A model generated the notes under the pieces. That model had not been told where the DNA came from, ran no database searches, and was given only the letters and a program-made list of their open reading frames with translations. From Rubripirellula sp. (GTDB lineage: Bacteria; Planctomycetota; Planctomycetia; Pirellulales; Pirellulaceae), in assembly GCA_012270065.1 (NCBI GenBank), contig JAAXJB010000064.1, positions 19,470 to 71,952 of the forward strand: a stretch of 52,483 bases of DNA, in the 5' to 3' direction. Below, piece by piece: positions 23,112 through 43,715 of the stretch; position 1 is the first letter of the stretch, and every line of letters starts with the position of its first letter. The translations under genes were made by a program, and so were the position numbers.

Positions 23112-23155
23112 TGGTCACTTCGCAGGCAATCAAAGGGATGAAACAGTCATGCAAA

Positions 23156-23186: not shown

Positions 23187-23242
23187 TGCTGATGGGATGA
23201 ATGCGGGAAACAGGATGCCTTGGTACCTGAATTCGAAGTGCA

Positions 23243-24226: not shown

Positions 24227-24267
24227 GGCAAGCTCAAAGCAGGAAAATCATGTGGAAGAACGTCAAC

Positions 24268-27200: not shown

Positions 27201-28596
27201 CGCAGTCACCAAACCAGAATGCATAGCCAGAGGCATCTCCCAAAGCCAATAACTCGTCGATTGCCATATCACGATCACGTGGCACAGCTTTTTCTGGTTC
27301 ATCCTGGACGACGCGGGTGTCCTCGGGAGCATCTTCGTCCCGCTCACCGTAGGCGGTTATCATTCCACCTGCCGTCACGGCAAAAATCTTGTCATCAGCG
27401 GCGATCAGGCGTTGTACCGGGTCTACCGTCGCAAAGCTGCCGGCGATCCTGGGTGTTTTCTTATCGGCAGGCAATTCGATGATTGTTACCTGTGTTTTAC
27501 CTGCAGCAACCAGATGCTTGCCAGCAAGAATCAAATCACCGGTGCCATCGGCTTCAATTTCCCACAGACGTTTGTGTTTTTCATCGTACGCTCGAACCAC
27601 AGACTTTCCATTGTCGAGCTCGGATGAATAAATGTGCCCGTCATGCAAGACTGGTTCTGTTGGGGTGAAAGATGTCTTCGCACCATTACTCAAGCGAAAT
27701 GCCCGTGTCCCTCGCTTGCGTGTATGCACATAGAAATGGGATTCATCAGCTGATACGAATGAACCACCATTACCTTTACCGCCTGCATCGATTTCGAAAT
27801 ACCGGAAGCTTCCATCGCTGCGGTTGAATACCGCTGGGACAGATCGGCCACCGGGGACAAGTAGCAGATCTTTGGTAGCCACGAGTGCGCCTTGCGGCGC
27901 CACACCCGCGAATGAAGGGGCACTGTGAGGCTGCTTGATGTACTGCGAGCCCGTGCTGTCGTTTACCCATTCCAGTTCGCCACTATTGGCATCCAGAGCA
28001 TAAAGAAACGTTCCCATGAAAGGCCAGATACTGGATGCAAAGTAGACCTTGCCGTCCCGAATCACAGGCCCACCACGCGCAGGCCATGCTGAGGTGACTC
28101 TGCGGTTGCCTATCGCCTGCTGACGATTTGGTGCGCCATCAAATTTCCAACGAAGTTTACCGGTAGCAGGATCAACGCAATAAAGGAAACCGTCATCACT
28201 GCAAAAGAACACACCATTCGCCGTAGCGACCGGTGGCAAACGGACTGGCGCATCGGCATAGGCTGACCACAGCTCTGTTCCGGTATCAGTATCGAAGGCT
28301 GAAACCTTGTCACGATCATTGAAACTCAAAAACAGCCGGTTTCCTGCCACGACAGGTTCAAAAACACGGTCATAGCTCATCAAGTCGAGGTTAAGAGGGT
28401 CATCCCAAGCCTGATTTCGGGGCTGCAGATTTTTCTGCCACAGAACCGCGAATTCATCTGGCAGATCACTTGCAGTGGCGGCAGTCCGTTGAGCATTGCA
28501 ACGCCACATCGGCCAATCGTCAGCAAGAAGATCGGCTTTGAGCAAACCTGGAAAGACAAACAGCAAAGGAACAAGCCGAGACCATTTCAGGGCCAT
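24268..28596 (-). CDS. Giant exported PQQ-like propeller with methyltransferase-like insert
   Basis: This 1442-residue exported protein has four regions. Residues about 25-420 form a PQQ-type beta-propeller (repeats such as FDTDTGTELWSAY, CVDPATGKLRWKFDG). Residues about 444-595 look like a Rossmann methyltransferase (WFGDCEGGRLA as motif I, LVVMDDDLEAVG as the acidic strand-2 loop, VRPYGGVLHILV late). A second propeller runs to about 1080. The C-terminus carries a CBM-like beta-sandwich (VVDLASEDLEF, LGLRFNKLRM, WKAGNSMAFLL) and a malectin-like end (VFDVYVQDKLAV). The chosen start is ATG 28596: the frame opens at TTG 28617, but the ATG gives a clean signal peptide and GAGAGGA lies just upstream. 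Catalytic function is unknown. Confidence 0.87.
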   Translation of the reverse strand: MALKWSRLVPLLFVFPGLLKADLLADDWPMWRCNAQRTAATASDLPDEFAVLWQKNLQPRNQAWDDPLNLDLMSYDRVFEPVVAGNRLFLSFNDRDKVSAFDTDTGTELWSAYADAPVRLPPVATANGVFFCSDDGFLYCVDPATGKLRWKFDGAPNRQQAIGNRRVTSAWPARGGPVIRDGKVYFASSIWPFMGTFLYALDANSGELEWVNDSTGSQYIKQPHSAPSFAGVAPQGALVATKDLLLVPGGRSVPAVFNRSDGSFRYFEIDAGGKGNGGSFVSADESHFYVHTRKRGTRAFRLSNGAKTSFTPTEPVLHDGHIYSSELDNGKSVVRAYDEKHKRLWEIEADGTGDLILAGKHLVAAGKTQVTIIELPADKKTPRIAGSFATVDPVQRLIAADDKIFAVTAGGMITAYGERDEDAPEDTRVVQDEPEKAVPRDRDMAIDELLALGDASGYAFWFGDCEGGRLAALIANSPFDQLVVMDDDLEAVGRQRLALDRQNQYGKVTVHVGDPQQTMLPSYVGNMMFIDHDSSNEFDPSAVRRLYRTVRPYGGVLHILVKNGREQIAEQLEQLELEQAKVQIHAHGVSVKRIGALPGAADWTHQYGDVANSIKSDDRRVKLPLGVLWFGGSSNMDVLPRHGHGPPEQVIGGRLYIQGMNSLSARDVYTGRVLWKREFKDLGTNDVYFDSTYENTPLDTKYNQVHIPGANGRGTNYVVTQDRVYIVEGSTCHVLDSVTGEDLKDIRLPAYGDTVDPQWGYIGVYKNVLLGGYAFASYRDRLGLSFESDKKLKKNRQGFGSKSLDRAASMGLIAFDRHSGDVLWKIDAQNSFWHNGIVAGGDQVYCLDRNPAPVEDALRRRGKLDASVNRIIAVDYLSGKVSWQVDEDVFGSWLGYSEQHDLLLQAGAAASDRLSSEVGQGMAVHSADDGTIRWKKSSLKYTGPCILHNDLIITNTNSYAESGGAFYLLDGRQKMVPNPITGQMQPWKITRAYGCNNIIASENLLTFRSGAAGYYDLQTNAGTGNLGGFKSGCTSNLVVANGVLNAPDYTRTCSCAYQNQTSLALVHMPEVELWSVNTAASVETHGERIERVGINFGAAGDRRDPNGLLWLEYPVTAGPSPPLKIKWNEDASVFGHHASFAAKSEYPWVMSSGLDGITDLKISMQMRDEYSLQNGVPVAHVNDDAMENGKGVVDLASEDLEFSEKSGNQLLGLRFNKLRMYQDSVVRDAYIEFATVQPEEKSTVMTISVEDTGNAKGFAKAERNLSNRKLGTGAVSWKTEQKTGTQQKWSRQRTPNLAELIQSVIQRKDWKAGNSMAFLLSVEGDHKLAAYSKSGQNHARLIIDAEAKAKDARPQDRYQLRLFFSQSKLDGDDRRVFDVYVQDKLAVSDVTIEGASGEAGDSVFVLNDILVGEELDIRFQAKQGKPLLSGLELIRQNSGEQK

Positions 28597-29050
28597 CAAT
28601 GAGAATCCTCTCAACAACCAGTAACAACATCAAAATACGCGGGGTCACCTGCCAATCTCCATTGGCAGCAAGCAACCTGAACAGAAGACATTGTAGTCGC
28701 ATCTGTCTCAACCAGTCGTTGGGGGAAAATCATGGTTTTTCCGGTTCCCTTCAGCGGGATAGAAATACCTGCCATGGCAAAATTTGCCGGGCTGTCAAAC
28801 CAATGAGCCCGTGATCCAGGCTTTGAGTGGACACACGTCTAAACTGTTTACGTGAGAGGGTTTGCAACCTTGTTACCTGACACAGAAGAAACGCAAAAAA
28901 CGGTTTCAGTGGGCCAAAACGCCGGTGCAATCCTGAAATCGCATTTGAACGATGCAAATGCGGACTGTTAACGCCCCTCGTTGTCATCGGATCGCATAAC
29001 TGGGGAAAACCGTCTGCCCCTCGCTCCGTTTTCGATCATGGGTCCCAATC
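28597..29050. other. Divergent promoter region, no gene recognised
   Basis: About 450 bases separate the minus-strand propeller gene from the plus-strand repair operon, so both promoters should lie here. Visible structure is a 10-bp palindrome TGCCATGGCA (28770-28779) and a 6-bp inverted repeat CGGGCT/AGCCCG (28788-28793 and 28806-28811) with a 12-nt loop. I see no convincing sigma-70 promoter, no CTGT-N8-ACAG LexA box, no tRNA and no credible small gene. Confidence 0.5.
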
Positions 29051-30304
29051 ATGGACGTCAAAGACAAGCTGGCCATCCTGGCAGATGCCGCCAAGTACGA
29101 TGCTTCCTGCGCGAGTAGCGGCTCCGGAAAAACACGAGCTGGCAGCACCATCGGCAGCACCGAGGGCATGGGAATCTGTCACAGCTACACGCCTGACGGT
29201 CGCTGCATTTCCCTATTGAAAATACTGCTGACCAATTTCTGTATCTACGATTGCCAGTATTGCGTCAATCGTATTTCCAGTGACACACCACGAGCACGCT
29301 TCTCCGTCGCCGAAGTCGTCTCATTAACGCTCGAGTTTTACAGGCGGAACTACATCGAAGGTCTGTTTCTCAGCTCGGGAATCATTCAGAACCCCGACTA
29401 CACCATGGAACAACTGACCGCTGTGGCCAAAGTTCTCAGAACGGAACACCACTACGGAGGATACATCCATCTCAAAACCATTCCAAACGCCAACGAAGAC
29501 CTGATCGAAGAAGCTGGTCGCTGGGCAGATCGCCTCAGCGTCAACATTGAATTACCAACCGAAAAGGACCTCATACAACTTGCGCCCGAGAAAAAGAAGC
29601 CGGAGATTGTCGATGCGATGCAGGGGATCTCTGAAAAGATCACTGAATCACGCGAAGACCGTAAACGGGGCTTCAACAGCCCGCGCTTCGCACCGGCTGG
29701 CCAAAGTACCCAGATGATTGTGGGGGCAACACCAACTCCCGATAAAACAATTCTGAAGACAGCAGCCGAACTGTATGACGGGCAAAAGCTGCGACGTGTT
29801 TACTATTCGGCCTACAGCCCGATTCCACATGCTGACGCAAGGTTGCCTGGGCAATCACCGCCACTTGTGCGTGAACATCGTCTCTATCAAGCCGACTGGC
29901 TCCTGAGGTTTTATGGATTTGACGCATCAGAGTTGGTAACTGAAAGCGATCAGAATCTTTCTCTGGATGTTGATCCCAAACTGGCATGGGCCCTGGCAAA
30001 CCGACACTGCTTTCCAATTGACGTCAATTCAGCCTGTCGTGAAGAACTGCTGCGTATCCCGGGCATTGGCGCAAGGAGCGTCAAACGGATCTTGAAGATC
30101 AGACGGTTTCAACACATCCGGATGTTGGACCTGAAAAAGCTGAAAGTCGCATGGAATCGCGCAAAGTACTTTGTACTGACGATTGACCATAACCCCGCAG
30201 TGAAGCAACTCGACATGCTGGATCTGCATCAGAAACTCCGACAACCAACACAACAGCTCATGCTCTTCGACGCGATTGAGTCGGCAACATCCGGTGAGGT
30301 TTGA
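29051..30304 (+). CDS. Radical SAM protein, UDG-linked, with C-terminal HhH
   Basis: This 417-residue radical SAM protein is of the family described as putative DNA modification/repair and linked to a uracil-DNA glycosylase partner. The [4Fe-4S]/SAM cluster motif CIYDCQYC gives C64, C68 and C71 (CxxxCxxC). Further conserved cysteines lie ahead of it in YDASCASSGS and GICHSYTPDGRC. The C-terminal third has a helix-hairpin-helix DNA-binding motif (RIPGIGARSVKRIL). The reaction is unknown. A radical step on a damaged or modified base is the natural inference. It starts at ATG 29051 and is followed after 6 bp by the UdgX-fusion gene, its usual genomic partner, and then by the ligase-associated module. 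Confidence 0.9.
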   Translation: MDVKDKLAILADAAKYDASCASSGSGKTRAGSTIGSTEGMGICHSYTPDGRCISLLKILLTNFCIYDCQYCVNRISSDTPRARFSVAEVVSLTLEFYRRNYIEGLFLSSGIIQNPDYTMEQLTAVAKVLRTEHHYGGYIHLKTIPNANEDLIEEAGRWADRLSVNIELPTEKDLIQLAPEKKKPEIVDAMQGISEKITESREDRKRGFNSPRFAPAGQSTQMIVGATPTPDKTILKTAAELYDGQKLRRVYYSAYSPIPHADARLPGQSPPLVREHRLYQADWLLRFYGFDASELVTESDQNLSLDVDPKLAWALANRHCFPIDVNSACREELLRIPGIGARSVKRILKIRRFQHIRMLDLKKLKVAWNRAKYFVLTIDHNPAVKQLDMLDLHQKLRQPTQQLMLFDAIESATSGEV

Positions 30305-30310
30305 CTATTC

Positions 30311-31738
30311 ATGCAATTCCTTCAGGTGGCATGTTTTGACGAATGGCGTGCGGCGGCACGAACCTTGTTGTGTAACGAGGTTCATCCCTCTGAAGTTCAC
30401 TGGACACAGGACGACAAGAGTCCAGGACTTTTCGATGGCTTCTCCCAAGTTGAACACGCTCAAAAAGAGGATGCCGATCAAGACACGCGAACGCATACGA
30501 TGCGATTCAATGTGCCTTCAGCCTTTCTCGACCTGGCTCGTACGGTTGCCTGTCATCGAAATCCATCGCGATGGCAATTGCTGTATCAGACGCTGTGGCG
30601 AGTTGTTCATGGCGAACGACACGTACTTGAACTGGACACCGATGATGATGTGCATCAATTGCAACGCATGAAAAAGGCCGTGACGCGTGACGTACACAAA
30701 ATGAAAGCCTTTGTGCGGTTTCGGAAAATCGAAGCTGGCAACCTTCCGGAAATCTACCTCGCATGGCATCGGCCAGATCACCTCATCATGCGACTGGCCG
30801 CACCCTTCTTCACTCGCCGATTCAAAGGAATGTCATGGACAATTTTTACTCCCCATGAATCAGCTCACTGGGATCAGAAGCAGTTGACCTACGGACCGGG
30901 TATCCCTGCAAGTCAAGCTCCACCACCAGACGAGCAGGAGGAACTATGGAAAACCTATTACGCATCCATTTTCAATCCGGCTCGTATCAAACTCGACACG
31001 ATGAAACGTGAAATGCCAGTCAGGCATTGGCGCACTCTCCCTGAAGCAGACCTGATCGAAGATCTGGTGCGTGACGCCCCCGCTCGGGTCAAAGTGATGA
31101 TTGATAACCACGAGGGCTTTTCCGAAACAGGAGTGCACTACCTGCCAGAGCAACGCGACCTCTCCTCATTGAGAAAAGCCGTCGGCCAATGTCAAGCGTG
31201 TGACTTGTGCCACGATGCAACGCAGGCAGTATTTGGTGTTGGCCCTGCGAACGCATCTGTTGTCCTGGTGGGAGAACAGCCTGGAGATCGCGAGGACGTG
31301 ACTGGAACACCGTTTGTCGGACCTGCAGGGCAACTTCTCAATGCTGCCCTGTTTCAAGCCGGTATCGACAGGACATCCGTCTATCTCACGAATGTGGTCA
31401 AGCATTTCAAGCACGAGCAGCGAGGAAAAAGGCGATTACACAAAAAACCTGACTCGCGGGAAATCTATGCGTGCCGACCATGGCTGGAAGCTGAAATATC
31501 GGCGCTGAAACCGAAAATGGTTATCTGTCTCGGTGTAACGGCTGCACAAGCTCTGATGGGACGCGACTTCCGACTCACTCAACAGAGAGGTGTGGTCCAC
31601 AAGACTCAATGGAGTACACGGACACTTGCAACCTGGCATCCAGCTGCCATCCTCCGAATGCAGAATGTTCAACGGAAACGTGAGATGGAAAGCCAGCTCA
31701 TTGAGGATCTCAGACAGGGCATGGAGACAACCAGATGA
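30311..31738 (+). CDS. rSAM-partner domain fused to UdgX-type uracil-DNA glycosylase
   Basis: This 475-residue protein joins two domains. Residues 1 to about 255 match the conserved partner domain of UDG-linked radical SAM proteins (function unknown). Residues about 285-470 form a family-4-like uracil-DNA glycosylase with GEQPGD (321-326), candidate Fe-S cysteines (C294, C297, C300, C388, C406), and WHPAAILR (442-449). The loop KRRLH (373-377) is the UdgX signature. In mycobacterial UdgX the histidine of this motif attacks the sugar after uracil removal and leaves the enzyme covalently bound to DNA. H377 is the candidate. The stop overlaps the start of the exonuclease gene by 4 bp (ATGA, 31735-31738). 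Confidence 0.92.
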   Translation: MQFLQVACFDEWRAAARTLLCNEVHPSEVHWTQDDKSPGLFDGFSQVEHAQKEDADQDTRTHTMRFNVPSAFLDLARTVACHRNPSRWQLLYQTLWRVVHGERHVLELDTDDDVHQLQRMKKAVTRDVHKMKAFVRFRKIEAGNLPEIYLAWHRPDHLIMRLAAPFFTRRFKGMSWTIFTPHESAHWDQKQLTYGPGIPASQAPPPDEQEELWKTYYASIFNPARIKLDTMKREMPVRHWRTLPEADLIEDLVRDAPARVKVMIDNHEGFSETGVHYLPEQRDLSSLRKAVGQCQACDLCHDATQAVFGVGPANASVVLVGEQPGDREDVTGTPFVGPAGQLLNAALFQAGIDRTSVYLTNVVKHFKHEQRGKRRLHKKPDSREIYACRPWLEAEISALKPKMVICLGVTAAQALMGRDFRLTQQRGVVHKTQWSTRTLATWHPAAILRMQNVQRKREMESQLIEDLRQGMETTR

Positions 31739-32772
31739 GCCAACTGCTGCAACAGACCAGGCGTGGCTTTTACTGCGCACAGGGTGACTTTTACATTGAT
31801 CCACATCGTCCGGTGGATCGCGCTGTAGTCACACATGCCCACGCAGATCATGCCCGTTGGGGTTGCCGACAGTACCTCGCTGCCAGATCTGGTGAACATC
31901 TGCTGCGAATGCGAATGAGCCCGGAAGCTAAATTCCAATTTGCTGATTATGGGGAAACTTTCCATCTTGGTGGTGTGGCAATCAGCTTGCATCCTGCTGG
32001 CCATATGCTTGGTTCAGCACAAGTCAGGCTCGAGTATCGCGGGCGCGTCGAAGTTGTCACAGGTGACTACAAGCTGGGTCACGACGCGACCTGTGAAAGC
32101 TGGCAACCGCTGCGCTGCCATCTCCTCATCACCGAATCGACCTTTGGACTGCCGGTTTACCAATGGCCGGACCAGCAAGCTGTTTTTGCCGCCATCAATG
32201 ATTGGTGGCAGCAGAACCGTGAAAAAGACCTATGCAGTGTGCTCTATGGTTACGCAGTTGGTAAAAGCCAACGAATTCTGGCCGGATTGGATCCACGAAT
32301 CGGACCGATATTCTGCCACGGTGCAGTCGAAAAGGGGAATGCAGCTTATCGCCAATCCGGTGTTTCGCTGCCGGATACAAGACATACCGGTAGCGTAGAA
32401 AAAACCCATTCCTGGGCTGGTGCCATGGTGGTAGCAGTCCCCAGTGCACACGGCACTCCATGGCTGAAACGCTTTGGCCGAACAAGCACAGCAATGGCAA
32501 GTGGTTGGATGGCAATCCGTGGGTCAAGACGCCGACGCTCCTTCGACCGCGGCTTTGTACTGAGCGATCATGTTGACTGGCCATCACTCCTTGCCGCAGT
32601 CGACGCTTGCAATCCGGAGACAGTCTGGGTTACCCACGGCTACACTGCCGTCGTTGCCCGTTACTTGAACGAAACGGGTCGCAACGCGATTTCACTCGAC
32701 CGATGGCAACGTTCATCCAGTGATGAAGAAGATGTCGAACCAACCAGCAGCGAGGGAGAACAGGAGGAATGA
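31735..32772 (+). CDS. Ligase-associated MBL-fold DNA exonuclease
   Basis: This 345-residue metallo-beta-lactamase-fold nuclease is of the ligase-associated exonuclease family, related to SNM1/Artemis-type enzymes. The metal motif is HAHADH (H34, H36, D38, H39). Other features are the GH-containing LHPAGHMLGSAQVRLEY, the TGDYK and TESTFGLPVY segments, and SDHVDW toward the end. Length is full for the family. The Pseudomonas putida homologue of this four-gene module has been studied biochemically as Exo beside Lhr-Core, MPE and Lig. It overlaps the genes on both sides by 4 bp, so expression is translationally coupled to the UdgX fusion upstream and to the ligase downstream. Confidence 0.94.
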   Translation: MSQLLQQTRRGFYCAQGDFYIDPHRPVDRAVVTHAHADHARWGCRQYLAARSGEHLLRMRMSPEAKFQFADYGETFHLGGVAISLHPAGHMLGSAQVRLEYRGRVEVVTGDYKLGHDATCESWQPLRCHLLITESTFGLPVYQWPDQQAVFAAINDWWQQNREKDLCSVLYGYAVGKSQRILAGLDPRIGPIFCHGAVEKGNAAYRQSGVSLPDTRHTGSVEKTHSWAGAMVVAVPSAHGTPWLKRFGRTSTAMASGWMAIRGSRRRRSFDRGFVLSDHVDWPSLLAAVDACNPETVWVTHGYTAVVARYLNETGRNAISLDRWQRSSSDEEDVEPTSSEGEQEE

Positions 32773-34385
32773 AACTGTTCGCTGAACTCTACCGGGTGCT
32801 GGATTCAACAACGCGTACGAGCGTCAAAATTGCAGCGATGGTTGATTATTTTGCTCGTGCTCAGCCTGCTGATGCGGCATGGGCTGTTCATTTCCTGTCG
32901 GGCGAAAAACTCAAACGTCTGATACCCGGCAAACTGCTGCGTCAATGGGCTGCAGAAGAAGCTGGCATACCAACATGGCTGTTCGAAGAGTCCTACAGCT
33001 CCGTGGGAGATCTGGCCGAAACAATCTCATTGGTTATACCTGATCAGGGAAGTGAACCAGAGGACTCATTGTGCCACTGGGTACAGAATCGCCTGATGCC
33101 ACTACGAGACATGGACGAATCACAACAGCGCATTGCGGTAACAGAAATGTGGCATGACAACCCCGCCCACGTCAGGTTTGTCATCCTCAAACTGATGACG
33201 GGGGCTTTCCGTGTAGGTGTGAGCAAAAAACTGGTTACGCGCGCGTTGGCAGAACACACTGGCATGCCGGTTGAGGTTGTTGCGCATCGACTGATGGGAA
33301 CGTGGACTCCCTCACCAGAATCTTTTCTGCAACTGGCTGATCCCGATATCGGAGACGCCGATGCAAGCCAACCGTATCCGTTCTGTCTGGCACATGCGGT
33401 CGATCGTGACAGCAATCCAGAAGTGCTTGGAGAATTTTCGGACTATGCCGCTGAATGGAAATGGGATGGAATACGGGGACAGTTGATTCGCCGGAAATCT
33501 CAAACGTTTCTGTGGTCCCGCGGCGAGGAACTGATGGAGAATCGCTGGCCAGAAATCGAAAGTGCTGCCACTGACTTGCCCGATGGTACTGTTCTCGACG
33601 GCGAGATTCTTGCCACGCATGCTGACGGAACAGTGATGCCTTTCGCCCAACTGCAGCGACGGATCAACCGAAAGAATGTAGGCCGTAAACTCCTGCATGA
33701 TGTTCCGGTCGTGTTTCATGTGTTCGATTTGATCGAAGAGGGAACAATCGATCTGCGATCACTTCCCTGGCAAGAACGACGCTCCCGACTTGAAAAACTG
33801 ATCGCACAACTGGAGCACCCTCAGTTGAAAATCACAGACCTGATCCCCGCAGAGTCCTGGCAGGACTGGATCGACATCAGAGGTCAAAGCCGCCAACGCC
33901 ACTCTGAAGGCCTGATGTTGAAACGTCTCTCTGCTCCCTACGATGTTGGACGTGTACGAGATACGTGGTGGAAGTGGAAAGTTGATCCCTACACCATTGA
34001 TGCCGTGCTCATCTATGCACAAAAAGGTCACGGCAAGCGGTCAAGCCTGTTCAGTGATTACACCTTTGCCGTCTGGAAAGGAGCTGAGCTTGTACCCTTT
34101 GCAAAAGCGTACAGCGGACTCAGTAACAGCGAACTACGAGAGGTTGACCGTTTTGTCAGAAGAAACACGAGAGAAGCATTTGGTCCTGTTCGGAGCGTGC
34201 AGCCAGAACTGGTGATGGAACTTGCATTTGAAGGTCTTCAAGTGAGTACGCGGCACAAAAGTGGGATTGCAACGCGGTTTCCCCGGATTATCCGGTGGCG
34301 ACATGACAAACAGGCCAAAGACGCGAACACGCTCGATGATGTCATGGCGTTGCTTCCCGAAGCTTCCGTGGGTGACACCAAGTAA
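32769..34385 (+). CDS. ATP-dependent DNA ligase, helicase/exonuclease-associated
   Basis: This 538-residue ATP-dependent DNA ligase has an N-terminal DNA-binding region (residues 1 to about 200), followed by the nucleotidyltransferase domain with the adenylated lysine K231 in EWKWDGIRG. Later ligase motifs are VFHVFDLI, EGLMLKR and WWKWKVDPY, and an OB-fold follows (residues about 410-530). It seals nicks in duplex DNA using ATP. It is distinct from the NAD-dependent LigA used for replication and from the polymerase-fused NHEJ ligases: no Ku or LigD polymerase domain is near. The stop and the helicase start share one base (TAATG, 34383-34387). Confidence 0.95.
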   Translation: MKLFAELYRVLDSTTRTSVKIAAMVDYFARAQPADAAWAVHFLSGEKLKRLIPGKLLRQWAAEEAGIPTWLFEESYSSVGDLAETISLVIPDQGSEPEDSLCHWVQNRLMPLRDMDESQQRIAVTEMWHDNPAHVRFVILKLMTGAFRVGVSKKLVTRALAEHTGMPVEVVAHRLMGTWTPSPESFLQLADPDIGDADASQPYPFCLAHAVDRDSNPEVLGEFSDYAAEWKWDGIRGQLIRRKSQTFLWSRGEELMENRWPEIESAATDLPDGTVLDGEILATHADGTVMPFAQLQRRINRKNVGRKLLHDVPVVFHVFDLIEEGTIDLRSLPWQERRSRLEKLIAQLEHPQLKITDLIPAESWQDWIDIRGQSRQRHSEGLMLKRLSAPYDVGRVRDTWWKWKVDPYTIDAVLIYAQKGHGKRSSLFSDYTFAVWKGAELVPFAKAYSGLSNSELREVDRFVRRNTREAFGPVRSVQPELVMELAFEGLQVSTRHKSGIATRFPRIIRWRHDKQAKDANTLDDVMALLPEASVGDTK

Positions 34386-36898
34386 TGAAAACCGTTGATT
34401 CATCACCATCTGAGACGGCTTCAGGTACCATCGACAGATTTTTCAAGTCGATTGGCTGGAAGCCATTCCGTTTTCAGCGTTCCACCTGGCGGGCCTATCG
34501 CGATGGTTCAAGTGGTTTGGTTCACTCCGCAACCGGAACGGGTAAAACACTCGCTGTCTGGATGGGTCCGATTCTGAAATGGCTCGATGAAAATCGTGAT
34601 CGCGACAAGTGGAATCCCAAGCGGCCACCGGGATTGCGTGTTCTCTGGATAACCCCCCTGAGGGCGCTGGCAGGTGATACCGAAGCATCATTACGACAAC
34701 CTCTGGATCACCTGAACCTGCCCTGGCGATTGGAATCAAGAACCGGCGACAGCAAAGCAAGTGCAAAGGCGCGTCAACTCAAACGCCTGCCAACGGCTTT
34801 GATAACGACCCCCGAAAGCCTCTCACTCATGCTGACACATGAGAAACTTCTTGAACAATTCAGCAAACTGGAAGGTGTGATTGTCGATGAGTGGCATGAG
34901 CTTCTGGGAACAAAACGTGGTATCCAGACAGAGTTGGCTCTGGCCCGACTGAGAAAATTGAATCCGCAACTCCGGATTTGGGGATTATCCGCAACTCTGG
35001 GAAATCTGGAACAGGCAAAACAGTCACTGATCGGCGCCGATCTGATCAACGCAGAATCGAGTCATCCAGTAAGGATCATTGAGGGTTACAGAAAAAAACG
35101 TCTGCGGCTCGAGTCAATCATTCCTGAACGCATGGATTCATTTCCGTGGTCGGGCCATATAGGGACGAAAATGGTCCCGCAGGTTGTCGACCGGATTGAA
35201 TCTGTCAACAGTACGCTGGTCTTTGCGAACACGAGATCACAAACTGAAATCTGGTATCAACAGCTACTCAAGCAACGGCCAGACTGGGCTGGTCGTATCG
35301 CTTTGCACCATGGATCACTCGACACAAGCGTCCGCCAATGGGTTGAACAGGGTCTGCGAAATGGAAGCTTGAGGGCTGTCGTGTGCACCAGCAGCCTTGA
35401 TCTGGGAGTGGACTACACAGCGGTCGACCTTGTCATCCAGATTGGAAGCCCAAAAGGAGCTGCCCGCTTGCTGCAACGGGCAGGCCGCAGTGGTCATCAG
35501 CCTGACGCAATCAGCCATTTGGCTTTTGTTCCAACCAATGCAATCGAGTTGATGGAACTGGCTGCAGCCCAGGATGCGATCCGGGCAGGACATCTGGAAG
35601 CCAGACCTCTCTTGAAAAAACCTCTCGACGTACTCGCACAACATCTGGTGACCATTGCAATCGGAGGAGGATTCCGGTCGCAGGAGCTGCTTCGCGAAGT
35701 ACGCTCAACACAAGCCTATGAATCGCTGACAGATACCGAATGGAATTGGGTGCTGGATTTCATAGTCCGCGGTGGGGCTTCACTTGATGCTTATCCTGAA
35801 TTCAAGCGGGTGGAACGGGAAGAGGACTTTTTTCACGTCACACAACGACGACTACAAACCAGCCACCGCATGAATATCGGAACAATCGTCGCCGATGCAT
35901 CGATGCATGTGAAATACCTGAAGGGAAAAACACTGGGAACAGCGGAAGAATCTTTTCTGTCAAAACTCAAGCCACAGGAAAAGTTCCTGTTTGCGGGCAA
36001 GCTCGTCGAGATGGTCACCATCCGCGACAACATTGCCTATGTCAGACGTGCCAAGGGGACACCTGACACAGTTCCGCGATGGATGGGCGGTCGCATGCCA
36101 TTATCGAGTGAACTGAGCGAAGCGCTACGTGAGAAACTGCACGAGGCTTCGCGACAGAAACTCGTGGGCCGTGAAATGAATGCACTGAAGGGTCTCCTCG
36201 ATATCCAGCAAAGATGGAGCATCATTCCACAATCAAACCAGTTGCTGATTGAGCAGATCAAAACACGAACCGGTTATCAGATTTTCATCTTTCCATTTGA
36301 AGGTCGACTGGTACACGAAGGCTTGGCGGCTTTGACTGCCTATCGCATATCAAGAAATAATAAAACTACGTTCTCGATGGCGTGTAATGATTATGGAATC
36401 GTACTTCAATCACACTCCAAAACGGAAATCGATCCAGATACTGCCAGGGTCTGGTTTTCAACCGACAATCTTGTAGCGGATATACTCGAAAGCATGAATT
36501 GTACGGAAATGGCAAAACGCCAATTTCGACAAATCGCCCGCATCGCCGGGCTGATTCAACAGGGGCTGCCCGGCATGCGCAAAAATTCGAAACAACTGCA
36601 AGCCAGCAGTAACCTGTTTTTTGATGTCTTCTGTCAATACGATCCTGACAATCTGCTACTTGAACAGAGTCGCCGGGAAGTGCTTGATCAACAGCTCGAA
36701 GCATCTCGGATGCACATGGCCATGGAACGCATCTCCCAGAGCCAGATCATGATTCAAGAACCGCCTCGAGTCACACCTCTCGCATTTCCATTACTGGTCG
36801 ACAAATTGCGTGAACGCGTCAGCAGCGAGACACTTGCTGATCGCATTGCCCGAATGCAGATGCAACTTGAAGCCGCGGCTGTAAGAACAGGAAAGTGA
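34385..36898 (+). CDS. Lhr-type ligase-associated DEXH-box helicase
   Basis: This 837-residue superfamily-2 helicase is of the Lhr-Core type. Walker A is SATGTGKT (48-55), motif II is DEWH in VIVDEWHELLG, motif III is GLSATLGN and motif VI is QRAGRSGH. The region after the RecA pair holds the winged-helix and Lhr-specific beta-barrel parts expected of Lhr-Core, and the length is right for the core form without the long Lhr C-terminal extension. Members translocate 3' to 5' on single-stranded DNA and unwind DNA or RNA:DNA hybrids. It shares a base with the ligase stop and is followed after 9 bp by the metallophosphoesterase gene. Confidence 0.95.
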   Translation: MKTVDSSPSETASGTIDRFFKSIGWKPFRFQRSTWRAYRDGSSGLVHSATGTGKTLAVWMGPILKWLDENRDRDKWNPKRPPGLRVLWITPLRALAGDTEASLRQPLDHLNLPWRLESRTGDSKASAKARQLKRLPTALITTPESLSLMLTHEKLLEQFSKLEGVIVDEWHELLGTKRGIQTELALARLRKLNPQLRIWGLSATLGNLEQAKQSLIGADLINAESSHPVRIIEGYRKKRLRLESIIPERMDSFPWSGHIGTKMVPQVVDRIESVNSTLVFANTRSQTEIWYQQLLKQRPDWAGRIALHHGSLDTSVRQWVEQGLRNGSLRAVVCTSSLDLGVDYTAVDLVIQIGSPKGAARLLQRAGRSGHQPDAISHLAFVPTNAIELMELAAAQDAIRAGHLEARPLLKKPLDVLAQHLVTIAIGGGFRSQELLREVRSTQAYESLTDTEWNWVLDFIVRGGASLDAYPEFKRVEREEDFFHVTQRRLQTSHRMNIGTIVADASMHVKYLKGKTLGTAEESFLSKLKPQEKFLFAGKLVEMVTIRDNIAYVRRAKGTPDTVPRWMGGRMPLSSELSEALREKLHEASRQKLVGREMNALKGLLDIQQRWSIIPQSNQLLIEQIKTRTGYQIFIFPFEGRLVHEGLAALTAYRISRNNKTTFSMACNDYGIVLQSHSKTEIDPDTARVWFSTDNLVADILESMNCTEMAKRQFRQIARIAGLIQQGLPGMRKNSKQLQASSNLFFDVFCQYDPDNLLLEQSRREVLDQQLEASRMHMAMERISQSQIMIQEPPRVTPLAFPLLVDKLRERVSSETLADRIARMQMQLEAAAVRTGK

Positions 36899-36907
36899 AA
36901 GCATATC

Positions 36908-37594
36908 GTGAAGATCAATATCCTGCATTACGAGCTTGAACTGCTGGCTGAAAAAGGGGTTTACTGGGACAAGCACAGCTGTCTGTTTGTTGCTGATACG
37001 CATTTCGGGAAAGAGTCGACTTTCCGGTCCCATCTCATTCCCGTTCCTGATGGATCAACGGCCGAAACGTTGAAGTCCATCACAAAAATGATCGAGCGAA
37101 CAAAGGCACAAACGCTCGTGATCCTTGGTGATATGTTTCACGCAAGGTCATCATTGTCAAAAACCACTCACGAAGAATTGCGGGTTTTCCGTGAACGGCA
37201 TGCCACTTTGCAGATCAAGCTCGTACCTGGAAATCACGATCGCCCACTGGGGACTCTGCCCAAAGCGTGGAATATCGAAATCGTTCCCTGCGGTGAATTT
37301 GCCGACGGACTTGCAATTGGCCACGAACCCGAGATCATGCCAAATCACGTGGACCTGATGTTGTGCGGTCATCTTCATCCGGCGTTGCAACTGAAATCGG
37401 CCATGGACGTGATCGGCAGGTTGCCTTGTTTCTGGTGGCACAGACAACGCCTGATTCTGCCTGCGATCGGTGACTTCACCGGATGCAGCACAATTCAGCC
37501 CACCTCTGACGATGCTGTTTGGGTCATCGCAGACGGGACTGTCATTGCTTCCCCACTTCAATCAACAAGCAACTTGAAACATTCCGCTACATGA
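36908..37594 (+). CDS. pdeM: Ligase-associated metallophosphoesterase nuclease
   Basis: This 228-residue binuclear metallophosphoesterase is of the ligase-associated family (MPE/PdeM). Motifs in order are ADTHFGK (D30, H32), LGDMFH, VPGNHDR, GHEPE and CGHLHPA, which supply the two-metal site. The Pseudomonas putida homologue is a manganese-dependent single-strand DNA endonuclease. The start is GTG 36908, giving the family-typical short N-terminus before the first motif. It is the last gene of the six-gene operon, 9 bp after the helicase. About 200 bases without an obvious hairpin separate it from the next gene. Confidence 0.94.
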   Translation: MKINILHYELELLAEKGVYWDKHSCLFVADTHFGKESTFRSHLIPVPDGSTAETLKSITKMIERTKAQTLVILGDMFHARSSLSKTTHEELRVFRERHATLQIKLVPGNHDRPLGTLPKAWNIEIVPCGEFADGLAIGHEPEIMPNHVDLMLCGHLHPALQLKSAMDVIGRLPCFWWHRQRLILPAIGDFTGCSTIQPTSDDAVWVIADGTVIASPLQSTSNLKHSAT

Positions 37595-37800
37595 ACAAGC
37601 TGAATTCGGTGACCGCTTCATCCTGAATGAGATTTGACGCTGGCAAACACAGAACTGAGCATCGCCCACCAGAAAAGTGCATTCGAGTCACACTGGACCT
37701 CTTGATTGATCCATGTAGCGCCAGCCCGTACCATGGCAAGAAGGAGAATCAAATTCGCTGGAAGAAGCGGTTTTCACCGGAATGACTTCGATGATCGATA

Positions 37801-38838
37801 ATGATGGAATTTGCTGCTGACTTCACCGCGATTGATTTTGAAACCGCAAGCCGCCAGCCGGACAGTGCATGCCAGTTGGGAGCTGTTGTTGTCCGCAACG
37901 GCCAGGTCGTAGACCGGTTCATGTGGATGATTCGACCAGAGCCGCTCTACTTCAGTCAAAGTAACATCAGAATTCACGGTATCACTCCGGCTCAAGTTCG
38001 TGACGAACCAACCTTTGGTGAAATCTGGTCCGACGTTCACGCGAAGCTCGGGGACGACTGTTTGGTGGCGCACAATGCCAGTTTTGATATCAGAGTATTG
38101 CTCGCCTGCCTACGAACGCACGGCCATCCCGTACCCGAAATGCAGTTCACATGCACTCGTGCGATTGCTCGTCGTACCTGGCCCCACCGTCATCGTTTCG
38201 GATTGAAGCCGCTTGCCCAATGGCTTGGCATACGCTTTCAGCACCATGATGCACTGGAAGATTCTCTCGCCTGTGCAAAAATTCTGCTTGCTGCTGGAAT
38301 CGATCGCGAGGTCAGTTCATTGGACGATCTCGAACAGAGCTTGAAACTGAGTCGTGGAAGGGCCGGTTCATGGGGACTCCGGGGTCCCACCACAAATTCC
38401 CGAAAACGTCCTGTTCGTAAGAATCACCAATCAACCTCACCAAAACCGGCACCTGGTCTTCCGTTTCTATTTCCGAACCAGACATCGGAAAATACAGAGC
38501 ACGCCTCCTCAGGTAATCAGCCAGAGTATGAAATTGACATGCAGCGAATCCTCATTCGTGGTGAATTCGTCCGCCCACTCCATGGCAAACGGATCGCATT
38601 TGTGGGCAAACTGAAAAGCATGAGTGACAGTGATGCAGAAATTCTGACCACCCGGCTAGGTGGCATTTGGCAGGCCAAAGTCAACGAGGAAACAGATTAC
38701 GTGGTCATTGGTTCATCCCGGAAAATGTGTGACTTCAGCCGGGAAGAGCCGCTGGAAAAAAATGGTGAAGATGACAGCAATGCTTTCCAGATTGTGAATG
38801 AGAAAGAGTTTTTAAATCTTGTCACATCCGGCGTGTGA
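37801..38838 (+). CDS. DEDDh 3'-5' exonuclease with C-terminal BRCT domain
   Basis: This 345-residue protein pairs a DnaQ-like exonuclease domain with a BRCT domain. The exonuclease motifs are AIDFETA (Exo I), IRIHGI, VAHNASFD (Exo II) and HHDALEDSLACA (Exo III, DEDDh type). After a linker with many Ser, Pro and basic residues (about 185-245), the BRCT domain follows (GKRIAFVGKLKSMSDSDAEILTTRLGG, then DYVVIG). It would trim 3' ends while the BRCT domain docks on a partner or on DNA. It lies 207 bp after pdeM on the same strand, so it may extend the repair island or have its own promoter. ATG 37804 is an equally possible start. Confidence 0.92.
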   Translation: MMEFAADFTAIDFETASRQPDSACQLGAVVVRNGQVVDRFMWMIRPEPLYFSQSNIRIHGITPAQVRDEPTFGEIWSDVHAKLGDDCLVAHNASFDIRVLLACLRTHGHPVPEMQFTCTRAIARRTWPHRHRFGLKPLAQWLGIRFQHHDALEDSLACAKILLAAGIDREVSSLDDLEQSLKLSRGRAGSWGLRGPTTNSRKRPVRKNHQSTSPKPAPGLPFLFPNQTSENTEHASSGNQPEYEIDMQRILIRGEFVRPLHGKRIAFVGKLKSMSDSDAEILTTRLGGIWQAKVNEETDYVVIGSSRKMCDFSREEPLEKNGEDDSNAFQIVNEKEFLNLVTSGV

Positions 38839-39060
38839 ATGATACGTTTTCGACCCGCCGAGTCGATTTGGTTGATCATCCAGAAGCCAATTTGCAGCTG
38901 TAGAGTGTTTTTTCCAAATTTGGCCAATATCCAGCATGACATCAAGACGGAGACGGGCTCTGAAGTGAATCGCAAAGCACGCGCAATGAACCAAAGGTCA
39001 GATCGTCATACAATCACTGCCGATCGGGCAGGACTGCCATCTAAAACAACTACTTTTCCC

Positions 39061-40071
39061 ATGCACTACAATCTCGTTCTTGCTTCTATCGGCTTGTTTG
39101 TTGCTCATCTCCTCATGCAGTACAAGCAAGTGGATGCCCAAACACCGGATCATCATGAACTGTCCGAGGAACCGGATCCGTTGAATCAGAAATCTGCCGC
39201 TGATCAGTCTGCGCCCTTCAATGTCCCATTGAAGACCTATGGGGGTACTCAATTCTGGACAGACCACCAGCACAAGCAGGGTTATCGTATTCAATCAAAT
39301 TGGGTGACAGGCCACTGGCGACTGCTGGATCGAAATGATGTGCGTCGAGCCTGGGGAACCAGACAACAGTGCAATGCTGCATTGTCGGAAATATTGGGTG
39401 ACCAGACCGAACAGCCGCAAAACAAGGAATATGTCGTTCTTTTGCATGGCCTGATGCGATCTCACCAGTCGATGCGTTCCATGCAAAAGGTGTTGCAGGA
39501 ATCAGACTGCGGAACCGTCCTGCGTTTTTCATACGCCAGCACAAGAAACACGATTGGTGATCACGCTGCGGCTCTTAACGAAGTGCTCACTGGCTTGCCA
39601 AAGGATGCAAGAATTTCATTTGTGGCTCATAGCATGGGGAATATCGTTGTCCGTCATTTGCTGGCGGACTTGAAGCAAACAGATGATCCCAAAGGCTTGC
39701 TTCAACGATTTCGCTGCATGGTCATGCTGGGACCTCCGAATCAGGGTGCCGCCATCGCTCGCAGCCTGGCTCGCACAAAAGTCTTCGGAATCGTTGCGGG
39801 GAAGAGCGGTCTGGAACTGGGTCCCAATTGGCAACAGTTGGTGGGAGATCTCGCTATTCCAGATTTTCCTTTTGCCGTCGTCGCAGGTGATCTGAGTCAA
39901 AAAAACATACGCAATCCGATTCTGGCCGAACAAAGCGATTTTGTTGTGCAGGTGGACGAAACCCATCTGGAAGGTCAGGAGTCATTCGTCACTGTCCCAG
40001 TCGTCCATAGCACCCTGATGAAGAATCCACAGGTGCAAAAAATAGTCGTTGATTTCCTGAAGTCGCATTAG
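39061..40071 (+). CDS. Exported alpha/beta-hydrolase (lipase/esterase-like)
   Basis: This 336-residue alpha/beta-hydrolase has an N-terminal signal peptide (LVLASIGLFVAHLLM, ending near VDAQ) followed by an acidic, Pro-rich stretch. Residues about 120-330 form the catalytic domain: LLHGL (127-131) as oxyanion strand, and AHSMGN with nucleophile S191. The conserved GPPNQGA stretch resembles PGAP1/triacylglycerol-lipase-like proteins. A histidine near the C-terminus (VVHSTLM) is the likely general base. I chose ATG 39061 because it starts the signal peptide. The frame stays open to 38839, but the 74 extra residues look non-coding. The substrate is unknown; an ester or lipid in the periplasm is likely. 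Confidence 0.88.
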   Translation: MHYNLVLASIGLFVAHLLMQYKQVDAQTPDHHELSEEPDPLNQKSAADQSAPFNVPLKTYGGTQFWTDHQHKQGYRIQSNWVTGHWRLLDRNDVRRAWGTRQQCNAALSEILGDQTEQPQNKEYVVLLHGLMRSHQSMRSMQKVLQESDCGTVLRFSYASTRNTIGDHAAALNEVLTGLPKDARISFVAHSMGNIVVRHLLADLKQTDDPKGLLQRFRCMVMLGPPNQGAAIARSLARTKVFGIVAGKSGLELGPNWQQLVGDLAIPDFPFAVVAGDLSQKNIRNPILAEQSDFVVQVDETHLEGQESFVTVPVVHSTLMKNPQVQKIVVDFLKSH

Positions 40072-40548: not shown

Positions 40549-42516
40549 ATGACATCACATGACGACAACAAAATCCCCGAATTGCTGAAAATCGGGCAGA
40601 AAATCTCTCTTCTTCCCATCATTCACGGCAGCGGGCAATTCGCCGTCACGGTGCGTCGGTGGATGCTCGAACATTCATTTGACTGCATCGCTGTCCCACT
40701 ACCTGCCTCATTTCGCAGTGCGGTGGAAGCGGCGGTTCTGGAATTGCCACGTCCTTCCATCGTGATCCAACCGCCAACCACCCGTTTGACGGCAGAGCAC
40801 ACAGATTGGCAGCTCAATCAATGGGAACCAGAAACCGACGAACCGGATGCGGCCACTTGCAGCTACATCCCGATCGATCCATGCCAAAGTGTCATCATGT
40901 CTATCCGTGCCGCCATGGGTGAACATATTCCACGAGAATACATCGATTTGGAAACAGATCCTTTCCTTCCTTACGCTACCACCATGCCAGACCCCTTTGC
41001 GGTCCGACATGTGGCACCGGAAAAATTCGCAGCGGCCGTATTGCCAACCATTGTTCCGCCAGCAGACCAACAAACTCGACAGCGGATGGTTCACATGGCG
41101 TGGCGGTTACATCAGTTGGAAAATCAATACAAGCAAATTCTGCTCGTGACCAGCGTGCTTCATTGGCCATGGATTCGAGATGCGTATAGCCAACTGGTCA
41201 GTGGTCCCGATGGGCAACCAAAAAGTGAAGTGACTGCCTCACTGGAATTGCCTGATGACGATGACGTGCAAGAACCAGTGAGATACGCGGTAAAGAATCG
41301 CACGTTGATGTTTCTGTTTGGAGAGTTGCCCTACATCACCGGACTATACGAACGCGCCAGATCAGAACTTGAAGAAGACGATGACTTGCAGATTGACGGT
41401 GTCAAGGAACTTCTGATAGCGGCACGGGAAGCTTATCGCCGTGATCTTGGGAACCGGGCCAGACGCATCACACCGCTGCACCTTTCAAAGTGCTTGCAAT
41501 ATATCCGCAACCTGTCATTGATTCATCGGAGAATGACACCCGACCTGATCACAATTGTGACCGCAGCCAAGCAGATTCTGGGCGATCAGTTTGCACTGCA
41601 TGTTGCGGAACTCGCAAATGATTACAGATATTCTGAAGCAGAAGAAGAACACACCGCGCTTGAGGAGGTCACTCTGGGAATCGATCAAGCGCGCCTTCCC
41701 GATGGAGAAATTGTCTCGCTGGTCAATCGACTTCCTGGGCCACCCATGACGTGGTGCACTCTCGAACTCAAACGTCGACCCAGCAAATCAGAAAAGGATC
41801 AATGGAAATACCGCTGGAACCCTTACAGCCAATGCAGCTATCCACCAGAAGATGACCGGATAGAAAATTTCAGAACCCGTGTGTTCGAACGCGCGCGTTC
41901 CATCATGGGTAACGACCTCGCCAAAACAGAAAAATTCACCACCAGCGTGAAAGACGGAATTGATATCCGGGATACGCTGCGGCACTGGTACGAAAAGCAA
42001 ATCTACGTCAAAGTCGTACCGCCAAGCCGCGGTACCCTCGATGCCTGTGTGATGCTGTTCGACTCGCCCTCTGATCCCCGGGATTATCCCTGGAGGACAA
42101 CGTGGTTCGCTGAACACAAAGATGAGTCGACCTTATCGTTTTATGCCACCAATTACGAAGAAGAAATGGTCGGTCCAGGAATTGGATTGAGCGTGTACGG
42201 GGGAGCTTTGTTTCTCTACCCACCAGTGGTCATTCAGGACATCTGGACCGATGCCAGATTGGATTACACCGAAACGCTCGAAGAACGTCTGGTTGCGGCT
42301 GCATGTATCCATTCACGGGGCAAGCAAATCGCAATCCTGTCGGCTCTGCCACCGGGAAATGGCTTTCGAAAAATGGCGCGCAGATACCGCAAACACCTTG
42401 TCCACGTCCCACTGAATTCTTTCAGTGATGAACAGGTCCAGCAATTACGCACAGTCCACGTTCTTAACGGCAGTGAAGTTCGAAGCTATGCCGAAGAGTT
42501 CATTCGAAAAGTATAG
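40549..42516 (+). CDS. 655-residue protein, DUF5682/TraB-clan-like
   Basis: I do not recognise this 655-residue protein with certainty. No signal peptide or membrane helix is visible. The N-terminal third has a pattern like the DUF5682/TraB-like clan: PIIHGSGQFAVTVRRWML, then FDCIAVPLPASFRSAVEAA, IPIDPCQSVIMSIRAAMG and REYIDLETD. In DUF5682 proteins comparable strands carry HHGPG, a VLVEGP strand and a FIDLP strand. The middle is helical and the C-terminal 250 residues are unassigned (a WKYRWNPYSQCSYPPEDD stretch and late YVKVVPPSRG). The start ATG 40549 has AAAGGG about 9 nt upstream. It is convergent with the next gene, with 62 bp between stops. Confidence 0.8.
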   Translation: MTSHDDNKIPELLKIGQKISLLPIIHGSGQFAVTVRRWMLEHSFDCIAVPLPASFRSAVEAAVLELPRPSIVIQPPTTRLTAEHTDWQLNQWEPETDEPDAATCSYIPIDPCQSVIMSIRAAMGEHIPREYIDLETDPFLPYATTMPDPFAVRHVAPEKFAAAVLPTIVPPADQQTRQRMVHMAWRLHQLENQYKQILLVTSVLHWPWIRDAYSQLVSGPDGQPKSEVTASLELPDDDDVQEPVRYAVKNRTLMFLFGELPYITGLYERARSELEEDDDLQIDGVKELLIAAREAYRRDLGNRARRITPLHLSKCLQYIRNLSLIHRRMTPDLITIVTAAKQILGDQFALHVAELANDYRYSEAEEEHTALEEVTLGIDQARLPDGEIVSLVNRLPGPPMTWCTLELKRRPSKSEKDQWKYRWNPYSQCSYPPEDDRIENFRTRVFERARSIMGNDLAKTEKFTTSVKDGIDIRDTLRHWYEKQIYVKVVPPSRGTLDACVMLFDSPSDPRDYPWRTTWFAEHKDESTLSFYATNYEEEMVGPGIGLSVYGGALFLYPPVVIQDIWTDARLDYTETLEERLVAAACIHSRGKQIAILSALPPGNGFRKMARRYRKHLVHVPLNSFSDEQVQQLRTVHVLNGSEVRSYAEEFIRKV

Positions 42517-42578
42517 GCAACCACAGACAGTCGCCTATTCCAAAATGAACGGTCATGTTGTCAAAACAGCATGATGGG

Positions 42579-43709
42579 CTAATTCCCCAACGAGCGCCGT
42601 TGTGCCGCTTGTTGTGCCGCTCGCTGTGCCTCGAGAACAGCATCTTCCAGCGCCCGACCACCACGTCGAGGCAAATCTTCTTCGGGAACAAGCGGAGGTA
42701 CAGTGCCACTGTTTCGTTGTCTTGCAGCAGCGCCATGCACACCAATCACGCCTGACTGCAGCGCGGGTCCCGGAGGCAGAAAAAAACGCCCTATTCCCCG
42801 ACCCTGAAAATTGACATCTTCGATGACCTGGGGGCTTTTCCCTGTTCGGTCAATGGCGACTGACTGCATCGCCCATTCATGAACAACGATTTCATATCGG
42901 ACTGCCGGTTCATACTCGGTGACAAATTCACGGATTGCAGAATAACCAAAAGGGTTCATGACTCTAAATCGCTCAACCCTTCGTCCCCCAACGTCACGGA
43001 CCAGTTCGACATCGGTCGACGCCCCAGCTTGAAGACGCATCTGGCGGGATTGTGTTGGTGCCTGCAGATCACGCAGTTCCACCTGAATCTCCCGGCGGCC
43101 ATCGTTAACCAGCTTGATCCGGGCTGGTGGCAAAGGTGGATCAGGTACAACCACCGCGTCAACCAGAATGGACTGTGGCATGGGCCACCAGCCAGAGTAA
43201 CCAAGCAAGTAGGGATCAACAGGCAGCCCGTACCACTGCCACGGCGAAAGATGTTGCCAGTGATTCAACGGACGCTGACCAAACGGATGGATCACGGGGA
43301 ACAACTGCCCAGAAAAGAACACCGGTGGGCCAAAGGTCCAAGGTGACAGAATTTGACCACGTCGCAATCGCACACTTCGCCGCGTGTTCATGAAACGTGG
43401 CTGCGGGTCACCCAAAGCTGCTGTTTGCATCATTCCCACACCAGCACGTGGAAACCGAAGCGCACGATGCATCTTCGCGCTGTAATAACCTGCAAATTCT
43501 CCACCAAGGGAATCCAGAGAGGGATCTCGACTGAAAGAAGCCTGCTGACCGGTACGGCTGCGGACCAGCATTTGACCGCCTTGAATTTCAGCTGTCGCTG
43601 TTACTTCACCCGTTGGCTCAACAAGATCAAAAATCTGCTGAGCATGAGTGGATTCCGGTATCAAGACGCCTATCAGCAGCCCAAGGCCGACAAAGAAAAA
43701 AGTCTTCAT
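42579..43709 (-). CDS. Secreted protein of unknown function
   Basis: I do not recognise this 376-residue protein. It has a clear signal peptide (MKTFFFVGLGLLIGVLIPESTHA|QQ). The mature part is rich in Pro, Trp and aromatic residues in the middle (PWTFGPPVFFSGQLFP, HLSPWQWYGLPVDPYLLGYSGWWPMP). It is followed by a region that could form a beta-sandwich (ARIKLVNDGRREIQVELRDL) and ends in an Ala/Gln/Arg-rich helix. There are no cysteines, so no disulfides or heme. A perfect ribosome site (GGAGGTT, 43716-43722) fixes the start. It lies 225 bp downstream of the giant secreted protein on the same strand, which may indicate shared function. Confidence 0.82.
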   Translation of the reverse strand: MKTFFFVGLGLLIGVLIPESTHAQQIFDLVEPTGEVTATAEIQGGQMLVRSRTGQQASFSRDPSLDSLGGEFAGYYSAKMHRALRFPRAGVGMMQTAALGDPQPRFMNTRRSVRLRRGQILSPWTFGPPVFFSGQLFPVIHPFGQRPLNHWQHLSPWQWYGLPVDPYLLGYSGWWPMPQSILVDAVVVPDPPLPPARIKLVNDGRREIQVELRDLQAPTQSRQMRLQAGASTDVELVRDVGGRRVERFRVMNPFGYSAIREFVTEYEPAVRYEIVVHEWAMQSVAIDRTGKSPQVIEDVNFQGRGIGRFFLPPGPALQSGVIGVHGAAARQRNSGTVPPLVPEEDLPRRGGRALEDAVLEAQRAAQQAAQRRSLGN

Positions 43710-43715
43710 GGAATC

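Follow-up and report, generated by a model that had tools for sequence, protein, structure and literature searches.

A putative six-gene operon joining a radical SAM/UdgX pair to a ligase-associated repair module in Rubripirellula

A 52,483 bp stretch of the genome of the planctomycete Rubripirellula sp. (contig JAAXJB010000064.1, positions 19,470 to 71,952; hereafter 'the window') contains two previously recognised sets of genes joined as one putative six-gene operon: a uracil-DNA glycosylase (UDG)-linked radical SAM pair and the ligase-associated Lhr-Core/MPE/Exo/Lig module. Each module was known already; no description of their joining was found in the openly available papers searched. The six genes carry intact motifs, the block is conserved in the window's family, the Pirellulaceae, and separate linkages of the two systems are found in other lineages, with an Lhr helicase being the part of the second set that recurs in every linkage seen. 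The interpretation towards which we lean is that of a facultatively coupled DNA-damage-repair operon, in which a lesion-specific head, comprising the radical SAM/helix-hairpin-helix protein and its TIGR03915 partner (here carrying UdgX), is joined to a general processing tail of Lhr-Core, MPE, Exo and an ATP-dependent ligase. The repeated, separate couplings suggest that the two gene sets assist each other in repairing some form of DNA damage; a single pathway, the class of lesion and the order of steps proposed below are inferred.

Gene content of the block

All six genes lie on the plus strand, and each product passes the curated NCBIfam cut-off by which its family was assigned. The first (29051..30304; TIGR03916, rSAM_link_UDG; 589.8 bits, cut-off 343.5) encodes a radical SAM protein with a C-terminal helix-hairpin-helix. 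The second (30311..31738) encodes a fusion of a TIGR03915/DUF4130 domain (residues ~1-246) with a UdgX-type UDG (~248-469), this single chain scoring 222.5 bits against TIGR03915 (cut-off 112.25) and 268.1 bits against TIGR03914 (cut-off 189.95). These are followed by the metallo-beta-lactamase exonuclease Exo (31735..32772; TIGR04122; 456.4 bits, cut-off 325), an ATP-dependent DNA ligase, Lig (32769..34385; TIGR04120, 'cisplatin damage response'; 629.6 bits, cut-off 400), the DEXH helicase Lhr-Core (34385..36898; TIGR04121; 1093.9 bits, cut-off 850) and the metallophosphoesterase nuclease MPE, or PdeM (36908..37594; TIGR04123; 200.5 bits, cut-off 150). Successive genes are separated by 6, -4, -4, -1 and 9 bp, the junction of genes 2 and 3, at 31735, being a 4 bp overlap, and 10 terminator-like sites were observed within 28500-38000 against 10.2 expected. 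The six genes are real and intact at these positions, which confirms the observation behind the original prediction: it had described six plus-strand genes with these same gaps and overlaps, and its coordinates agree. The identities it gave to the products also stand, with UdgX making up only the C-terminal half of gene 2.

Catalytic motifs are found in all six products. The radical SAM protein has the cluster motif CX3CX2C as CIYDCQYC at residue 64, and the UdgX half of gene 2 has motif A (GEQPG) and an R-loop, KRRLH, containing the cross-linking histidine, His377. Within the contiguous, same-strand Exo-Lig-Lhr-MPE set, Exo carries HAHADH (HxHxDH) and has distant beta-CASP kin in the PDB (best E 2.6e-7), while the ligase has the KWDG motif (KWDGIR). 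Lhr-Core, with the motifs GTGKT and DEWH and detectable Lhr winged-helix and DEAD_assoc domains, has 5v9x and 7lhl as structural kin (best stretch residues 307-802); the TIGR04121 match spans residues 16-829 of its 837 aa, leaving no room for the glycosylase-like region that full-length Lhr carries at its C-terminus. MPE has GDMFH (GDxxH) and GNHD, and matches the solved 'Nuclease MPE' structures 6nvo and 6nvp, which we take to be from Pseudomonas putida, with E 1.3e-37.

The closest named relatives of the radical SAM protein are those of Stieleria sedimenti (81%) and Neorhodopirellula pilleata (77%). The radical SAM fold is confirmed, and the best fold matches are HydE, lipoyl synthase and BioB; spore photoproduct lyase is not among the best 50 matches listed. 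Cysteines 20, 43 and 52, N-terminal of CX3CX2C, are invariant in 53/53 rows; taken with the lipoyl-synthase-like fold match, they point to a probable auxiliary Fe-S cluster. The C-terminal half of gene 2 matches Mycobacterium smegmatis UdgX with E 2.5e-77 and has the family-4 UDG fold, its cross-linking position being histidine in all 59 rows that have a residue there. For the TIGR03915 domain, the PDB yields no sequence relative at E 0.01, and the fold-match lists for gene 2 are filled by the UdgX half.

Conservation and recurrence of the linkage

Of 149 genomes sampled from the window's family, 33 have the radical SAM gene (32 above the cut-off and one split between frames) and 42 have Exo above the cut-off; the two occur together in 22, radical SAM without Exo in 11 and Exo without radical SAM in 20. 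In 12 of the 22 genomes with both, the radical SAM and Exo matches lie on the same strand, 1.5-1.7 kb apart. The complete six-gene block, in identical order, is present in 12 of the 149, counting the window and 11 others read from flanking sequence, and these carriers span six genera (g1, g196, g210, g218, g226 and g235). A lack of adjacency in related planctomycetes, which the original prediction had named as refuting it, is thus not what is observed. At the junction of UdgX and Exo, with start codons picked by script, the genes overlap or touch in five blocks and are separated by 9-226 bp in the other seven. The flanks of the window's block share no match with those of the other 11 (1.2-8 kb each side, tblastx, E 1e-15), and the block has therefore been kept while its surroundings changed.

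The block has apparently also been subject to deletion. A genome of the same genus (G289) is collinear with window positions 19251-28524 and 37789-47714, at 67-75% DNA identity, and between these flanks has 0.8 kb (L200, 9275-10075) as compared with 9.3 kb in the window (28524-37789). The six-gene block is missing, with no Exo detected in this genome at E 1e-20; 47 codons of the radical SAM gene remain at the syntenic spot, so this gene was formerly there. The other five genes were presumably lost along with it, to judge from two linked genomes of the same genus (G374 and G385).

In a tree of 51 radical SAM rows, every linked planctomycete row falls within one clade of 22, with Shimodaira-Hasegawa approximate likelihood ratio test (SH-aLRT) values mostly of 80-94 giving moderate support. 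This clade comprises 11 six-gene loci, one five-gene locus (N. pilleata), three genomes in which the modules lie apart (L082, L167 and L191) and seven without Exo, all of which retain the UdgX fusion. N. pilleata (L083, L219) keeps radical SAM-UdgX-Lig-Lhr-MPE and has Exo elsewhere, with no other tail genes near it. The planctomycete linkage is most simply read as having arisen once and then been split up or lost, and the clade is consistent with this. Omitted from the tree was L193 (G358), in which the radical SAM gene lies in two frames, through either decay or sequencing error.

Linkages were also examined among 80 named loci, many of them cut by contig ends, that came from a scan of species genomes for the radical SAM gene. 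In five, an Lhr-family sequence is immediately adjacent to the radical SAM gene or to the pair, once as a fragment: these are N. pilleata, the planctomycete UBA11363, a Pseudomonas metagenome-assembled genome, Pelagicoccus and Luteimonas. In UBA11363 (L084, L220), Lhr-Core stands by itself, divergent beside the radical SAM gene, with Exo-Lig elsewhere in the genome. The Pseudomonas order is Exo-Lig-Lhr-MPE-radical SAM-TIGR03915, and among 148 genomes of the Pseudomonas family (radical SAM in 64, Exo in 61, both in 53) this reversed cluster, with the tail before the radical SAM pair, was found in five, all six genes being confirmed in each and MPE lying 79-104 bp from the radical SAM gene. The Lhr and Lig proteins of these five loci form long branches separate from the planctomycete ones, and the one of their radical SAM rows that was placed in the tree (L106) clusters with P. 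alcaligenes; this linkage therefore arose independently, and in the opposite gene order. In one locus of this family, L205 (G531), the Exo gene is found in two frames, again attributable to decay or sequencing error.

The Verrucomicrobiota provide a further linkage in Pelagicoccus (L102), where an Lhr gene (5551-9852) is followed on the same strand by the radical SAM/UdgX pair (10001-11269 and 11303-12805). This Lhr is full-length, at 1433 aa, with a C-terminal WH4_Lhr domain, and 148 bp separate its stop codon from the radical SAM gene. In Luteimonas wenzhouensis (L113), a divergent 145-codon Lhr-Core fragment on the minus strand (~9456-9899), just before the radical SAM gene, is perhaps a relic of an earlier link. 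A ligase-like open reading frame in L159 (57 bits) and a helicase-like one in L195 (28 bits) were too weak to be counted as links. As judged from the sequences compared, the linkage is real, has arisen more than once and is facultative; it is the exception rather than the rule.

Proposed coupled repair and competing explanations

Exo is also commoner in genomes that have the radical SAM gene than in those that lack it, by Fisher tests that take no account of kinship. In the window's family, Exo is present in 22/33 genomes with radical SAM against 20/116 without (p 1.4e-7), and still in 10/21 against 20/116 once the linked genomes are removed (p 0.004). Equivalent figures are 53/64 against 8/84 in the Pseudomonas family (p 1.4e-20) and 9/11 against 46/189 in a sample of 200 alphaproteobacterial genomes, from the class of a Bradyrhizobium (p 1.8e-4). 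Exo was above the cut-off in 30 of the 50 named radical SAM genomes, out of 80, that were checked for it. In the phylum sample, Exo occurs in 6/7 against 11/239 when only the seven strongest radical SAM rows (E<1e-150), on which the Fisher test is based, are counted; with other radical SAM thresholds it is found in 6/8 above the cut-off and 6/19 under 1e-40, the 12 weaker rows holding no Exo above the cut-off. Linkage in the phylum sample is seen in the window's genome only, out of six having both genes.

Ku served as a control for these associations. In the window's family it shows none with radical SAM (3/33 against 7/116). In the Pseudomonas family it is strongly associated (54/64 against 21/84), and accessory repair genes therefore co-occur there whatever the pathway, such that co-occurrence is confounded. 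All 61 Exo genomes of the Pseudomonas family have Ku, and 14 Ku genomes lack Exo. Co-occurrence as a proof of one pathway is weakened by this control, and weight is instead put on adjacency.

Several further observations, alongside the Ku association and the neglect of kinship, count against a coupled operon. Of the genomes with both modules, 10/22 in the window's family were not seen linked, nor were 48/53 in the Pseudomonas family or any of the nine in the alphaproteobacterial sample, linkage in the latter two sets being judged by coordinates alone, where contig ends can hide it (at least two genomes, G473 and G633, are on contigs too short or cut for a decision). Seven of the 22 genomes in the linked planctomycete clade are without Exo at E 1e-20, and Pelagicoccus has no Exo above the cut-off, Lhr being the only tail gene seen near its pair. 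No shared operator emerged from a count of exact gapped palindromes in the regions preceding 43 radical SAM and 30 Exo genes. Finally, a UdgX domain is undetected in the partner protein at all five linked Pseudomonas-family loci, and a capping step is therefore not general. UdgX as the shared link between the modules was rejected on this ground; the constant elements are instead the radical SAM protein, TIGR03915 and an Lhr-family helicase.

These results divide the single pathway that the original prediction had drawn from the junction of the modules. The recurrence of linkage (12/149 genomes in the window's family, 5/148 in the Pseudomonas family, and Pelagicoccus with the full-length Lhr only) speaks for it; as an obligate arrangement it is not supported, given the Exo-less members of the clade, the three genomes with the modules apart and the 0/9 linked alphaproteobacteria. 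The model is plausible but over-specified, its sequence of recognition or trapping, incision, resection, unwinding and religation being a proposal only, and the interpretation as a whole is partly supported.

If the head and tail do act together, the radical SAM/TIGR03915 unit would recognise a damaged base in DNA, probably a pyrimidine, and chemically alter or reverse it, and UdgX could excise a uracil-like base and cap the resulting abasic site via its active-site histidine. Lhr-Core, which is a 3'-to-5' translocase in studied relatives, would open the strand; MPE might then nick the single strand, with Exo trimming the end, a host polymerase filling in and the ligase sealing.

The strongest competitor to coupled repair, a possible explanation to which we assign a distinctly smaller probability, is that only regulation is shared: both modules would be damage-inducible and neighbours for the sake of joint induction, each dealing with different lesions in a separate pathway. 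The COG1573-COG4277 pair, that is radical SAM with UDG, is SOS-regulated in several phyla according to passages of PMC8565304, and the modules occur singly (11 radical SAM-only and 20 Exo-only genomes in the window's family) and unequally on plasmids (158 records for radical SAM against nine for Exo). However, linkage to an Lhr-family gene arose more than once and in differing orders, relatives have no common upstream operator, and co-occurrence in the family persists when linkage is removed, at the 10/21 against 20/116 given above, uncorrected for kinship.

An unlikely alternative is that the tail serves to release UdgX-DNA adducts, with UdgX capping abasic sites and Lhr-Core, MPE, Exo and the ligase removing the crosslink and resealing the strand. 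The covalent bonding of UdgX to apurinic/apyrimidinic (AP) DNA is described in PMC10776899 and PMC10359453, the histidine responsible is conserved in 59/59 rows, and the MPE here is a close match to the nuclease MPE of known structure, whose active site is likened to that of Mre11 in PMC7437997. Set against this, no UdgX domain is detected at the five linked loci of the Pseudomonas family, and the seven Exo-less genomes of the linked clade all keep the UdgX fusion; M. smegmatis UdgX was studied as a protein of ~209 residues without tail-type partners. A related and similarly doubtful elaboration of coupled repair is a programmed cap-and-release, whereby UdgX would turn a damaged base, possibly after its conversion by the radical SAM protein, into a protective protein-DNA crosslink that Lhr-Core, MPE, Exo and Lig later cut out and reseal, lineages without UdgX using another suicidal or bulky radical SAM/TIGR03915 intermediate.

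It is very improbable that two accessory, transferable cassettes came to lie together by chance and stayed so through drift or co-travel. In favour of this, both modules are patchy and both occur on plasmids in some bacteria, the whole block is missing from a genome of the same genus, and contexts are unlike in different genera. Against it, all six genes keep their order across six genera, the modules overlap or touch in 5/12 loci, and the Pseudomonas family and Pelagicoccus have linkages of their own. The recurring block, its changed flanks and the separate linkages make the arrangement more than chance. A physical linkage that has arisen more than once ties the two systems together, and the elements that stay constant in it are not UdgX but radical SAM, TIGR03915 and the Lhr helicase.

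Relation to known systems and neighbouring features

The ligase-associated module (TIGR04120-04123), reportedly studied as a nucleic acid repair gene cluster in P. putida, is represented in the window by all four genes, contiguous and above their cut-offs, with an MPE closest to 6nvo/6nvp; what differs is its setting, since the radical SAM/UdgX pair precedes it and the four genes make up the 3' portion of a putative operon of six. Likewise the UDG-linked radical SAM pair (COG4277-COG1573) is recognisable by two adjacent genes above their cut-offs and by the UdgX signature, but whereas it is a two-gene operon in the relevant passages of PMC8565304, here the ligase-associated module follows directly.

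By analogy, the nearest precedent for the coupling would be the mycobacterial lhr-nei2 operon, in which an Lhr-family helicase is operonic with a DNA glycosylase-type protein, and which acts against interstrand crosslinks (parts of PMC11323726). The window differs in having UdgX rather than Nei2, an Lhr-Core of 837 aa rather than an Lhr of 1507 aa, and four further genes; no Nei family match is listed among its six products, the partner being UdgX/TIGR03915. In Escherichia coli, full-length Lhr itself contains a UDG domain (PMC10953399, in part), and a comparable association of an Lhr helicase core with a UDG is predicted in the window, with the differences that it would be in trans, via the operon, and that the E. 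coli domain is AlkZ-like whereas UdgX has the family-4 UDG fold. The window's block would represent a further helicase-glycosylase association besides these two. Spore photoproduct lyase (SplB) is similar in that it, too, belongs to the radical SAM proteins for which an action on DNA is proposed, and a DUF4130-associated protein is termed SplB-like in a passage of PMC3765255; the predicted fold matches of the window's protein, to HydE, lipoyl synthase and BioB, neither support nor exclude a direct reversal of the SplB type.

Within openly available literature, as distinct from subscription papers and preprints, no report of the linkage of the two modules was found, and no paper treating UdgX together with the radical SAM protein. 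One review covers Lhr, radical SAM and uracil-DNA glycosylase without linking them in the passages available, and the genome table of a Sphingomonas paper includes genes of both sets.

Downstream of MPE, after 206 bp, lies a gene for a DEDDh (DnaQ) exonuclease with a BRCT domain (37801..38838). It was considered as a seventh member and rejected, as a phmmer search around the other 11 blocks, with 1.2-8 kb of flank in view, detected no copy; it also persists in G289 without the block, and is probably outside the operon. Further along, the products of 40549..42516 (655 aa) and 42579..43709 (376 aa) have no Pfam match at 1e-5. On the upstream side, a LexA-type operator was likewise rejected, no half-site being common to more than 7/43 upstream regions of radical SAM genes or 6/30 of Exo genes. 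A perfect inverted repeat, CGCATTTG-N7-CAAATGCG, was read by eye at 28940-28962, ~90 bp before gene 1, and was not seen as a common site upstream in relatives.

Plasmid records include the radical SAM gene in 158 cases (E 1e-40) and Exo in nine (E 1e-60). Among 40 of the 158 radical SAM records listed, one has both, that of Shinella PSBB067, with the genes 1.5 Mb apart. A 70 kb repABC plasmid of Leisingera caerulea (NZ_CP081068.1; L222) bears the radical SAM/UdgX pair.

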